DNA from: Acinetobacter sp. GSS19
GTDB taxonomy: Bacteria > Pseudomonadota > Gammaproteobacteria > Pseudomonadales > Moraxellaceae
Reading direction: 5' to 3'
DNA: 64,000 bases
NCBI RefSeq assembly: GCF_028621895.1
Contig: NZ_CP117520.1
Span: forward strand, 310,001 to 374,000
The notes under the pieces are model-generated. The model had not been told where the DNA came from, made no database searches, and was given only the letters and a program-made list of their open reading frames with translations. Positions 36,646 to 40,234 of this stretch are shown one piece after another. The stretch's first letter is position 1. Each line of letters begins with the position of its first letter. The position numbers and the translations under genes are program-made.

Positions 36646-37488
36646 TTAGCGTTGATCAGCTTCATCATCCGTTATTTGTTCTGGTTGGAAATCTTCGAGT
36701 TCTTCAAAACTGTCGACTTCATCGTCCTCCACAGCTTCCGGAATGGTATCTAAATCAAATTGGCTCACCTGATCCAGAGTGAAGTTCAGACGACCTCCCA
36801 TCACGCTGGCCAGCTCCTCCAGCCCCTGTTTGTTGAGCGAAGAAAACAGCTGAATAGAGAACTGCAACTTCATCTTTTTCAGGGTTTGTTTGACTTCGAG
36901 CAGGACTTTGTTGGCTGGACCACGATTCAGCTTGTCGGATTTGGTCAGGAGCACATGTACAAACAGCTTTCGTGAGTGTGCCCACTCCAGCATCATGACA
37001 TCAAAGTGTTGCAGCGGATGGCGGATATCCATCAAGAGCACCAAACCTTGCAGGCTTTTGCGGTGAATCAGATAATTTTCCAGCTCTTTTTGCCAGACCA
37101 GTTTCATGGCTTCAGGGACAGCAGCATAACCATAGCCAGGAAGATCGACCAGGCGCTGATCGGGATTACCCAGACTAAAGAAGTTGATCATTTGGGTACG
37201 GCCCGGTTTTTTCGAAGCACGTGCCAGCTGTTTCTGGTTGGTCAAGGCATTAATCGCACTCGATTTTCCGGCATTGGAACGGCCCGCAAAGGCAATTTCA
37301 TAACCGCTATCGTCCACACAGAGAGAGAGCTTGGGCGCACTCATCAAGAATTCGGCTTTGCGTAACCAGTTCAGTGCTTGAACCGCATATTCATTGATCG
37401 CAGGATCTACTTTTTTCTCATAGCTGATCTTTTGCTTGGTCGTATGCGCGGTCTTACTGTTTCTGGATTTTCCACTGCTGCGATGCAT
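36646..37488 (-). CDS. engB: Ribosome biogenesis GTPase EngB/YsxC (YihA)
   Basis: This is a TRAFAC GTPase needed for 50S subunit assembly. It has 280 residues; E. coli YihA has about 210. G motifs: GRSNAGKSS (G1, about residue 69), KKPGRTQ with the G2 Thr, DLPGYGYA (G3), TKSD (G4) and FSSL (G5). The extra length is a basic N-terminal stretch (about 45 residues, with SGKSRNSKTAHTTKQK) and an acidic C-terminal tail of about 40 residues (DDEVDSFEELEDF). Both look disordered and could be a genus trait. A second-codon-rich start is possible inside the extension. Confidence 0.93.
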   Translation of the reverse strand: MHRSSGKSRNSKTAHTTKQKISYEKKVDPAINEYAVQALNWLRKAEFLMSAPKLSLCVDDSGYEIAFAGRSNAGKSSAINALTNQKQLARASKKPGRTQMINFFSLGNPDQRLVDLPGYGYAAVPEAMKLVWQKELENYLIHRKSLQGLVLLMDIRHPLQHFDVMMLEWAHSRKLFVHVLLTKSDKLNRGPANKVLLEVKQTLKKMKLQFSIQLFSSLNKQGLEELASVMGGRLNFTLDQVSQFDLDTIPEAVEDDEVDSFEELEDFQPEQITDDEADQR

Positions 37489-37567: not shown

Positions 37568-38014
37568 TTATACGTTGAGCAGTTGGATGGCTGGGTAAGC
37601 ATTGTTGGATACGGCACGTTGAATCGGTTCCACAGCTTCAGCCAAGGTGTGTTGATTGAGTTTCTGATAGAATTCTTCCACTGCTTCATCGAGCAAGCCT
37701 TTGAGTCCACAGTAACTGCGTAGTACGCAAGGTGGGGTGCCGCATTCAACAATCGGTTGTCCGCCTTGCAAAATACGGACAAGATCACCCATGCGTAATA
37801 AAAGGGCTTCCGGCTGCAAACGAATCCCCCCGCCTTTACCACGTGTAGTGACGATCCAGTTTTGTTTGCCCATGAAGTGAACAATTTTGACGAGATGGTT
37901 TTGCGAAACATGCAAATCCTGAGCAATCTCGGCAATGGTGTAGGGTATTTCACGAGGACGCGAAATATACATGAGGACGCGTAATGCGTAATCGGTGAAT
38001 TTACTTAATTGCAT
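37568..38014 (-). CDS. nsrR: Rrf2-family nitric-oxide-sensing repressor NsrR
   Basis: This is a 148-residue Rrf2 protein with an N-terminal winged helix (QLSKFTDYALRVLMYIS...YTIAEIAQDLHVSQNHLVKIVHFMG) and the iron-sulfur ligands in ECGTPPCVLRSYC. The spacing CX4CX5C is that of NsrR rather than IscR. NsrR binds DNA with its cluster and releases it when NO nitrosylates the cluster. The gene lies 99 bases after the globin gene on the same strand, and that gene has a perfect NsrR-type operator, so self-contained NO control of the pair is likely. Confidence 0.88.
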   Translation of the reverse strand: MQLSKFTDYALRVLMYISRPREIPYTIAEIAQDLHVSQNHLVKIVHFMGKQNWIVTTRGKGGGIRLQPEALLLRMGDLVRILQGGQPIVECGTPPCVLRSYCGLKGLLDEAVEEFYQKLNQHTLAEAVEPIQRAVSNNAYPAIQLLNV

Positions 38015-38057
38015 GATCGCCTAACCACAAGAGACAGCTTAGGAGATCATCTTGGCG

Positions 38058-38084
38058 CGAGAGTTCAAAGGGGGGGAACTCTCG
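38058..38084. other. Hairpin between globin gene and nsrR
   Basis: CGAGAGTTC (38058-38066) pairs exactly with GAACTCTCG (38076-38084) over AAAGGGGGG. No T run follows on either strand, so it may be an mRNA-stability or processing hairpin or a weak terminator, giving unequal globin and nsrR expression. Confidence 0.5.
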
Positions 38085-38113
38085 GCCTGGATGTTCTAAC
38101 TCAAGCTGCTAAT

Positions 38114-38881
38114 TTAGAGCTTTACTGGAGCAGTGACTTCGACACTGTCACCTACTTGGTAGTCTTCAAGAAGAATTTTGGCTACTGAGAATTCAGTTGG
38201 ATTTTCTTCAGGAGTTACAATGAAACTATAATCGGTATTGCCTTGATTTTCCACAAAAGTAAATTGTTGTGGTTGATCAATACCATGCTTTTTAACGTGA
38301 ACTTTCACAGAAATAAAGTGGCCTGCTTCTGCTGGAGTCACTGCTTTACCATCTTTAGGTGCAATGGTCATACGTTTGCCATTTTCCGCAGCTTCAACCG
38401 CTTTAATCTCAAATTCGCGCCAGCCAGCCCAGCCACCTTGGTTGTGTGCGAGCGTGTCATATTTTTGCTTCTCAACACCGATCATGATATCAGCCAGCTG
38501 TAGATAAGCCTGTTTCCATGCTTCAATCAGGTCAGATTCAAATGGAACATTCAATACTTCGCTGATCGAGTGCAACAGGTTCTCACCCACAATCATGTAT
38601 TGATCCGGTTGGATGTCTAAGCTCACGTGTTTGGTGGTCATACGTTCTACCGCTTTGCCCAAAGCACCCGGATTTTCGATATTTTCTGCATAGGCCAAAA
38701 CTGCAGCAGCAAGGGCGCGAGGTTGGCGACCTGTACTTTGGTGATCTAGGTTAAACACATTTTTCAGCTCTGGATTATTTTTCAACATACGTTGATAAAA
38801 ATAGCTGGTCAGTGTCACGCCATTTTCACGTAGAACAGGTACGGTAGACTTAACGATTTCGATTTGTTGTGGGGTCATCAT
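38114..38881 (-). CDS. Short flavohaemoglobin-like globin lacking the reductase domain
   Basis: This is a 255-residue protein that aligns without gaps to the N-terminal globin of Hmp: Tyr29 (B10), Gln53 (E7), His85 (proximal haem ligand) and Tyr95 are all in the Hmp positions. After GGWAGWREFEIKAV it continues into an FAD-domain-like barrel of about 100 residues, but the flavin motif RxYS is replaced by QQFT. The protein ends (EVTAPVKL) exactly where Hmp goes on to its NAD domain. It is therefore about 140 residues shorter than Hmp, with no remnant downstream. Likely binds or oxidises NO with another reductase, or senses it. NsrR-controlled by its operator. Confidence 0.85.
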   Translation of the reverse strand: MMTPQQIEIVKSTVPVLRENGVTLTSYFYQRMLKNNPELKNVFNLDHQSTGRQPRALAAAVLAYAENIENPGALGKAVERMTTKHVSLDIQPDQYMIVGENLLHSISEVLNVPFESDLIEAWKQAYLQLADIMIGVEKQKYDTLAHNQGGWAGWREFEIKAVEAAENGKRMTIAPKDGKAVTPAEAGHFISVKVHVKKHGIDQPQQFTFVENQGNTDYSFIVTPEENPTEFSVAKILLEDYQVGDSVEVTAPVKL

Positions 38882-38907
38882 AGCGGCGGCTTCATTTTGT
38901 TGTTTAT

Positions 38908-38930
38908 AAGATGTATTTAAAATACATCTT
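38908..38930 (-). promoter_or_regulatory. NsrR operator over the globin promoter
   Basis: AAGATGTATTT (38908-38918), one base, then the exact reverse complement AAATACATCTT (38920-38930). This 11-1-11 palindrome has the NsrR consensus form. It covers the -10 TATTTT (minus strand, 38919-38924), which has a -35 TTGTCA (38942-38947) at 17 bp. Its edge is 27 bases from the start codon. Direct repression relieved by NO is expected. Confidence 0.9.
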
Positions 38931-38972
38931 TAAAATAGCCTTGACAATACACAGCATGATAAAAATACATAA

Positions 38973-39005
38973 AAAAGTAAAGGATAATTAATATCCTTTA
39001 CTTTT
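38973..39005 (-). terminator. metC terminator
   Basis: AAAAGTAAAGGATA (38973-38986) pairs fully with TATCCTTTACTTTT (38992-39005), loop ATTAA. On the minus strand T-rich sequence follows, 24 bases after the metC stop. Confidence 0.85.
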
Positions 39006-39028
39006 CAATATCTTGAATTGTTTTTTGG

Positions 39029-40234
39029 CTAAAATGAGTGAAGTTGCGCTAAAGCTTGCTGAATATCTGCAATTAAATCCTCAGCATGTTCAAGACCAAT
39101 ACAGAAACGTACCAGTAGACCGTCGGCAAGATGTGGATGATTGAGCTGGCGCATTTCTTTGGGGTTATACAGCATGACCAAACTGACCGGGCCACCCCAG
39201 CTAAAGCCGAGTTTAAATAGGGTAAGACTGTCACAGAACCGGCGTATAGCCGCCATATCATATTCTGCTTTAAAAATGACACTGACCAGTCCAGCGCTTA
39301 AGCTATCCTGGCATACTTGTTGCCAGTAGCAATGTCCTGGAGAATCAGGATTGGCAGGATGCAGGACTTGTGCGAACTCTGCTCGTGTTTTCAACCAGTC
39401 TAAAATGGTTAGAGCAGTTTGCTGTTGCTGGCGATAGCGGAGGGACATATGCGCTAGGCTGCGCTGGATCTGTGCCACATCATCACCGGCAACCGCAATA
39501 CCTTGAATTGCATGCATACGGAATAGCTGATGATGCAGCTTACTATCCCGGGTGACAATGCTGCCCATCAAAATATCACCGCCACCACTCGGGTATTTGG
39601 TTAGCGCATGCACGCTGATGTCCACGGCTAAATGTTCTGAAGAAAAATCAAAAGGATTGAAGGCTAACCCTGCTCCCCAGGTATTGTCCAAAACGGTCAA
39701 TACTTTTGCGGAACGTGCCTTTTCTACCAGACCCACCAGATCGGGGAATTCAAGCGTCACCGATCCAGCCGCTTCGAGCCATAACAATTTAGATTGGGCT
39801 GAAAACTCCAGCGAATTAACCTCTAGCGCATTGTAGACACGTACCTGAATCCCATAACGTTTTTGCAGGTTGTGCAAATGTTCCATGTTGGGTCCATAGA
39901 TATTGTCAGGTACCCAAACTTCATCGCCTTGAGCTAGAAAAGTGGAATTCACCAGATTAATGGCTGACAGACCGCTAGGGGCCAGCAAGCAATACTCACC
40001 GTGTTCAATTTGTGCAATTTGATCTGCTAGGGTGAAAGTTGTCGGTGTGCCATGTGTACCATAGCTATAATCGTAGGGATCGGTCCAGTGGCGATTAAAC
40101 AGGGCATCGGTATTGTCAAAAATAATGGTGGATGCACGAAACAGGGGAGGTTGAATCGTCTCGATATATTGCGGAGCCTTTCTTGGTGCATGGATTAGCT
40201 CTGTTTGCGGATTTTTTTTCACAGGAATGCTCAA
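39029..40234 (-). CDS. metC: Cystathionine beta-lyase (PLP-dependent)
   Basis: This is a 401-residue Cys/Met-metabolism PLP enzyme. Seen are YGTHGTPTTFTLADQIAQIE, SGLSAINLV, the DNTWGAGLAFNPF block with the PLP-nitrogen Asp, and SVHALTKYPSGGGDILMGS with the Schiff-base Lys near residue 210. The C-terminal FKLGFSWGGPVSLV fits the MetC rather than the MetB type. It cleaves cystathionine to homocysteine, pyruvate and ammonia. Divergent from the GATase gene; terminator just downstream. Confidence 0.88.
   Translation of the reverse strand: MSIPVKKNPQTELIHAPRKAPQYIETIQPPLFRASTIIFDNTDALFNRHWTDPYDYSYGTHGTPTTFTLADQIAQIEHGEYCLLAPSGLSAINLVNSTFLAQGDEVWVPDNIYGPNMEHLHNLQKRYGIQVRVYNALEVNSLEFSAQSKLLWLEAAGSVTLEFPDLVGLVEKARSAKVLTVLDNTWGAGLAFNPFDFSSEHLAVDISVHALTKYPSGGGDILMGSIVTRDSKLHHQLFRMHAIQGIAVAGDDVAQIQRSLAHMSLRYRQQQQTALTILDWLKTRAEFAQVLHPANPDSPGHCYWQQVCQDSLSAGLVSVIFKAEYDMAAIRRFCDSLTLFKLGFSWGGPVSLVMLYNPKEMRQLNHPHLADGLLVRFCIGLEHAEDLIADIQQALAQLHSF

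Follow-up and report, generated by a model that had tools for sequence, protein, structure and literature searches.

The window (the whole stretch of 64,000 nucleotides of Acinetobacter sp. GSS19 that was analysed) contains a short flavohaemoglobin-like gene, encoding a globin joined to an FAD-type barrel without a NAD domain, and we consider it probable (roughly 0.6) that its product serves as the oxygenase of a two-component NO dioxygenase and receives its electrons from a separate reductase of the cell. We put forward more tentatively, with somewhat less than even confidence, a fuller version in which the degenerate FAD barrel of this split flavohaemoglobin is a docking module for a general ferredoxin or flavodoxin reductase, the split and one-chain forms are interchangeable alleles of one NsrR-controlled locus that replaced one another on 14 or more occasions, and A. 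baumannii and A. baylyi rely on the split version against NO.

The short gene is an intact, open frame of 255 codons on the minus strand (38114–38881; 255 aa). Its globin domain (residues 1–146; 38444–38881, minus strand), placed by the Pfam Globin match at residues 28–132 and by residue counts, has the catalytic pocket residues of Hmp (Tyr29, Gln53, His85 and Tyr95) together with Phe43, Gln48, Lys84 and Glu137. The rest of the protein (residues 147–255; 38117–38443, minus strand) is a barrel homologous to the FAD domain of Hmp, as aligned to the structures 3ozu and 1gvh, with its flavin-domain residues replaced: the position of the RxYS motif reads Q205-Q206-F207-T208. In the Pfam search of the window protein only the globin exceeded its cut-off, and FAD_binding_6 gave no match at E ≤ 0.01; it reached that value in 16 of 52 short-form family members. 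The flavohaemoglobin equivalog of NCBIfam (PRK13289) matched residues 1–253 with its positions 1–251 of 399, at a score of 264.4 bits that is below the curated cut-off of 432, and the closest solved structures were full flavohaemoglobins (FHP 3ozu/1cqx, residues 1–255 of 403, E ~1e-55). Homology to flavohaemoglobin spans residues 1–253 only and the protein stops at the barrel; no C-terminal NAD(P)H-binding domain was found by profile or structure-sequence comparison. An earlier note on this DNA had described a kept haem pocket, an FAD-domain-like continuation with QQFT in place of RxYS and a missing NAD domain, and all three descriptions agree with these results.

Downstream of the stop lies a 99-bp spacer (38015–38113, minus strand), in which an inverted repeat was recognised by eye, followed by nsrR (37568–38014, minus strand), whose 148-aa product belongs to the Rrf2 family, has cysteines 91, 96 and 102, and scored 101.6 bits with the NsrR model, under the model cut-off of 182. 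The note had also claimed that these 99 bases hold no remnant of the lost part, and a tblastn search of the spacer for an NAD-domain or Hmp remnant with the full Hmp of the same genome gave nothing significant, in agreement with the note, the best match (E 0.029) being on the opposite strand and not to the NAD domain. The conserved neighbours on both sides, identified by neighbour comparison and found at the equivalent places in an A. baumannii record, are a downstream gene that we take to encode an EngB/YihA-type GTPase (36646–37488, minus strand) and an upstream gene that is presumably cystathionine beta-lyase-like (39029–40234, minus strand). Neighbours were compared in 32 short-form genomes (of 54) and at every one of the 65 full loci: the beta-lyase-like gene flanked the globin at 29 short and 56 full loci, nsrR lay beside it at 31 and 57, and engB at 30 and 55, respectively. 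Overall, nsrR was directly downstream at 53 of the 54 short loci, with a gap of 24–588 bp (the sole exception, G014, has nsrR about 4 kb off), and downstream of the full Hmp in 56 of the 59 full-only genomes. A 516-residue gene, presumably a HerA-like ATPase, preceded the globin at 76 of the 97 compared loci; it is missing from the window at 38882–39028, where the beta-lyase-like gene and the globin are 147 bp apart.

An exact AAGATGTATTTAAAATACATCTT palindrome was found by sequence match at 38908–38930, 26 bp before the first ATG, and it agrees with the NsrR consensus gATGyAT-N5-ATrCATc in the available excerpt of PMC1274295. Boxes of this type with at most three mismatches preceded 51 of the 54 short genes and 64 of the 65 full genes, at a median distance of 27 bp and 28 bp before the start, respectively; the three remaining short genes had 4, 4 and 5 mismatches. 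In a shuffle control (one per gene) no box with up to three mismatches appeared, the best having seven mismatches for the short and six for the full genes, and a genome-wide search allowing two mismatches matched in 104 of the 119 genomes, with none for the reversed control pattern. The short gene is therefore a predicted member of the NsrR regulon, as the note had supposed, on the strength of a palindrome close upstream and an nsrR in the genome. The sole expression evidence that we met concerns an A. baumannii gene pair named hmp/nsrR, described as sulfide-induced in the excerpt of PMC7315123 available to us, and this induction is not NO-specific.

Some further boxes were observed. Besides the exact palindromes before the short gene and before a full-length Hmp gene described below, only one weaker NsrR-like site was found in the window genome (C1:120476-120498, 3 mismatches), about 220 bp past a 307-aa transporter-like ORF, and no convincing target gene was found at it. 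Eight genomes, including carriers of the short and of the full form, share a site near rpoB with two mismatches, located approximately 225–268 bp upstream of a ~200-residue gene resembling an outer-membrane protein, which is perhaps a second member of the NsrR regulon; this site was not seen in the rpoB-proximal stretches opened of the window genome, G084 and G113. Among the matches listed, four genomes (G084, G107, G094 and G118) carry a tandem pair of NsrR-type palindromes, spaced 25 bp apart, before either globin form.

We searched 119 Acinetobacter genomes and obtained a match in 113. With the class assigned by open-frame length, 48 genomes had the short form only, 59 the full Hmp only, six had both and six neither, so that the architecture of the window gene was recovered in 54 genomes and the full Hmp in 65. 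If the two forms were independent, about 29 genomes would be expected to have both (Fisher p ~8e-20), but related genomes are not independent and the tree-based change counts given below weigh more. Fifty-three of the 54 short genes are intact with the same architecture and a length of 252–277 aa, counted from the first start codon; the only broken copy (G087) has a frameshift in the barrel with the globin part intact. A recent truncation or frameshift in this genome is thereby ruled out, and the concern that a full Hmp might be hidden behind a frameshift was not borne out. The short gene of A. gerneri is duplicated in tandem (L213, 4001–5737), with both copies intact and the second preceded by its own NsrR-type box. 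Regarding the genomes without a globin match, one of them (G114, 80% complete) does carry nsrR, immediately preceded on that contig by a frame of 149 residues that encodes part of an Hmp reductase; the other five also have no nsrR. The nsrR gene is likewise missing in G032, which has a full Hmp and is 90% complete.

Among the named species with the short form are A. pittii, A. nosocomialis, A. calcoaceticus, A. lwoffii, A. ursingii, A. rudis, A. portensis and A. baylyi. For A. baumannii there were four matching records, with one place each, and the three that were opened each showed a 254-residue ORF; these records are labelled plasmids, two of them being of chromosome size and the third of 538,712 bp. 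The annotation of the latter gives the order cystathionine beta-lyase, flavohemoprotein, Rrf2 regulator and YihA GTPase. A record labelled A. baumannii ACIN00150 was placed far from the A. pittii/A. nosocomialis clade on the rpoB tree, and its species label is probably wrong. Outside Acinetobacter no short form was detected, either in the order (245 genomes, 98 with a match) or in the class (369 genomes, 41 with a match), counting matches that started in the globin and passed residue 190, all of which were in frames of at least 391 residues. One genome of the order (G330) gave a weak match in a 218-residue frame, aligned to residue 187 with 24% identity and one internal stop. In a scan of species genomes, the best 80 of 252 loci comprised 55 short forms, all from Acinetobacter or from a Moraxellaceae MAG.

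The short forms constitute one clade, with SH-aLRT support of 100 in the tree of 54 rows and 100/100 in a thinned tree of 22 rows. In a tree with Hmps from outside the genus, this clade was nearest to the full Hmps of an Ignatzschineria and of an Alcaligenaceae MAG (96/83), and the full Hmps of Acinetobacter grouped with those of Pasteurellaceae and enterobacteria. A larger tree without the Ignatzschineria and Alcaligenaceae sequences returned the short and full forms as sister groups within Acinetobacter, and the place of the short clade is not certain because of its long branch. That the full Hmp of Acinetobacter was shortened in place is not favoured, since the tree with outside Hmps put the short clade nearest to full Hmps of other genera. 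A distinct type of full Hmp (426–431 residues), present in A. brisouii, A. harbinensis and relatives (five loci), grouped with enterobacterial Hmps, which suggests that it was acquired by transfer.

To place the two forms on the species history we used a quick rpoB tree of 110 of the 116 rpoB-bearing genomes (48 short, the genomes with both forms being scored as short, 57 full and 5 with none). The short/full state changed at least 15 times on this tree, well-supported branches alone forcing 15 to 16 changes; a 101-row rpoB tree, from which four genomes with a globin not beside nsrR were left out, still required at least 14. The NsrR proteins were not sorted by their globin partner: their tree, which is weakly resolved, gave 17 changes, and its supported branches account for no more than three forced ones. 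As an example, G084 (short) and G113 (full) have rpoB genes that are 97.4% identical and flanks that are collinear up to the globin gene. The short and full genes hold one and the same locus slot and have been repeatedly swapped there; given this shared slot and the number of swaps, the two forms are likely functional equivalents.

Conservation was examined on an alignment of the 54 short forms with 93 Hmps, of which 65 are the full forms from Acinetobacter and 28 were drawn from the order. Y29, F43, Q48, Q53, L57, H85, Y95, V98, Y126 and E137 were unchanged in all 54 short forms, and K84 was kept in 53. In the terms of the globin fold, for which we paired helix positions B10, E2, E7, E11, F7 and G8 with residue numbers by globin numbering as a working assumption, TyrB10, GlnE7, HisF8, TyrG5 and GluH23 of the Hmp globin were present in 54 of 54. 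According to the part of PMC7948479 available, LeuE11, ValG8, GlnE2, GlnE7, TyrB10 and LysF7 admit O2 and NO and gate electron transfer in NO dioxygenase. Positions constant in Hmps (at least 92 of 93) were kept in the short forms at 98.6% in the globin (34 positions) versus 45.8% in the barrel (21 positions). The barrel is nonetheless under purifying selection: the median dN/dS of the short forms was 0.045 for the barrel and 0.021 for the globin (52 pairs past the synonymous filter), with 0.179 as the highest barrel value among these pairs. The corresponding values were 0.029 and 0.008 in full Hmps (58 pairs), and 0.110 and 0.035 for the window gene against that of G045.

The short forms have also gained lysines, namely K76 in 53, K123 in 50, K140 in 52 and K169 in 48 of the 53 sequences considered (the frameshifted copy was left out), versus Lys or Arg at these positions in 0, 2, 0 and 5 of the 93 Hmps, respectively. 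Compared with Hmp, the net charge of the short globin is slightly less negative and that of the short barrel more negative; overall charge argues neither way on a positive docking face.

We then looked for the source of electrons. Searches with the reductase half of Hmp found no close stand-alone reductase in short-only genomes, where the best E ranged from ~9e-10 to 8e-16 (some of these matches being the short gene's own barrel) versus ~7e-53 or better in full-Hmp genomes, and a detached Hmp-type reductase was rejected as the partner. No reductase was a conserved neighbour at the 32 of 54 short loci compared. Of the 15 stretches with extra NsrR-like sites that were opened, 12 hold such a site among those listed, eight of them being the shared site near rpoB, and inspection by eye found a reductase beside none of the 12; for these loci and sites we accordingly discarded a reductase that shares its operon or operator with the globin. 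Eight short-only genomes, selected in part because they have few reductases, each contained two proteins that combine an FAD with a NAD domain (frames of 258–270 aa). In G107 these two and one 366-aa reductase were the only FNR-type matches besides the globin, and NCBIfam scoring, applied to the three G107 proteins only, gave ferredoxin-NADP reductase as the best model for the two shorter ones (160 and 202 of 390 bits, below the cut-off); those of G012 look like near copies. Two such Fpr-like proteins were also found in 8 of 8 genomes of another set, including that of the window, full-Hmp genomes and two without a globin. As they occur equally in full-Hmp and globin-less genomes, they are housekeeping candidates, not specific partners, and nothing singles them out as donors.

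A two-component NO dioxygenase would operate as follows. NO would lift the repression by NsrR, O2 would bind the ferrous haem of the short form, NO would be converted to nitrate at the haem, and the ferric haem would be re-reduced by outside electrons. The best candidate donors would be the two housekeeping ferredoxin-NADP-reductase-like proteins, acting directly or via ferredoxin, flavodoxin or free reduced flavin, and the kept barrel may form a docking surface together with lysines 76, 123, 140 and 169; a docking role for the gained lysines is a guess.

The strongest competitor, which we consider rather unlikely, is a stoichiometric or slow NO scavenger, whose oxy-globin turns one NO into nitrate and is then re-reduced slowly and non-specifically, e.g. 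through free flavins, a behaviour that single-domain globins may share. It would fit the finding that no specific reductase is linked to the short gene, and single-domain globins are the nearest solved relatives after the flavohaemoglobins; however, the electron-gate lysine F7 and glutamine E2 are retained as counted above even though their normal flavin partner is gone, and repeated swaps with a fast enzyme suggest a comparable performance.

The window genome (2.59 Mb, one contig) also encodes a full-length Hmp outside the window (G000:C1:1229973; region C1:1229923-1231193), which is 52% identical to the short form over the common part and preceded by the identical exact NsrR-type palindrome; no nsrR was found within about 4 kb of it. 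In all six genomes with both forms the short gene adjoins nsrR and the full gene lies elsewhere, and in one of them (G046) the full Hmp is adjoined by a second, divergent nsrR-like gene. These six genomes represent three lineages, and this co-retention hints at incomplete redundancy of the two forms, which may not be equal in all conditions. It is also one of the observations that speak for a non-enzymatic role as NO/O2 sensor or as NO/haem carrier, with the barrel as the contact site for a partner protein, the other being that the barrel is selected without its flavin-domain residues and has conserved residues of its own, such as Y241 and F/Y231. We regard such a role as improbable, given that the full set of NO-dioxygenase residues is conserved, that the short form replaces Hmp in 48 of the 54 genomes instead of accompanying it, and that no signalling output domain was found by Pfam in 52 short forms, in 11 of which the sensor-type Protoglobin model gave a weak second match. 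The repeated exchange with full Hmp at one locus likewise favours detoxification with outside electrons over a sensor or carrier. The earlier proposal that a one-chain dioxygenase had been turned into a two-component enzyme, a sensor or a carrier stands in part: the pocket is intact, and the flavin residues and NAD domain are gone; yet this was not a recent loss here, as the clade is genus-wide and was placed nearest to full Hmps of other genera, and the genome keeps a full Hmp.

A barrel that still holds a flavin or other cofactor through non-canonical contacts, in a protein working with a separate NAD(P)H dehydrogenase, appears very unlikely. Such binding would agree with the retention of barrel core residues and with Tyr189 of the GQY stretch, a position at which 22 of the 54 short forms have Tyr. 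Against it, R205, G231 and H238 were found in 0 of 54 short forms versus 93 of 93 Hmps (the frameshifted copy being gapped at 231 and 238), and S170, constant in at least 92 of the 93 Hmps, in 0 of 54. At position 231, 51 of the 54 have Phe or Tyr where Hmp has Gly, at position 207 Phe takes the place of Tyr in 51, and S234 is kept in eight; we assume from the ferredoxin-reductase superfamily that the RxYS residues, G231 and S234 are flavin contacts. A decaying pseudogene or an assembly error, for which only the one frameshifted copy could be cited, is refuted for the family by the intact copies in separate genomes, the low dN/dS and the conserved operator.

The short form shares with Hmp/FHP (PRK13289; 1gvh, 1cqx, 3ozu) the globin catalytic residues, the FAD-type barrel, the NsrR-type operator and the locus beside nsrR, but differs in having no NAD domain, in the loss of flavin-domain residues and in its length (255 versus ~400 residues). 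It resembles the single-domain globins, such as the Vitreoscilla haemoglobin (1vhb) and Campylobacter Cgb (which we take to be 2wy4, listed as a single domain haemoglobin), in being an Hmp-type globin without a built-in reductase; unlike these, which have 140–146 residues and end after the globin, it has a conserved barrel of ~108 residues. Cgb is inducible and protects against NO according to titles cited in PMC3820574. For a separate reductase there is a precedent in Legionella, where the available excerpt of PMC1274295 proposes NO detoxification under NsrR control by glbN and a ferredoxin reductase (lpg2536); glbN, however, is described there as a haem-containing cyanoglobin with the reductase in the same operon, in contrast to the Hmp-type globin with a barrel and no linked reductase reported here. 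Globin-coupled sensors differ in their signalling output domain. We found no description of a reductase-less Hmp in Acinetobacter in titles and abstract openings of the open-licence literature.

Public records name the short protein flavohemoprotein or nitric oxide dioxygenase, yet judged by its sequence it has no domain accepting electrons from NAD(P)H. Close relatives such as G084 and G113 form natural matched pairs, one genome having the one-chain form and the other the split form under an operator of the same kind. Should the short form prove to be an active NO dioxygenase, Hmp's covalent reductase would be dispensable, and our reading, if true, would correct the assumed NO defence in the hospital pathogen A. 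baumannii and in A. baylyi, a standard laboratory species.
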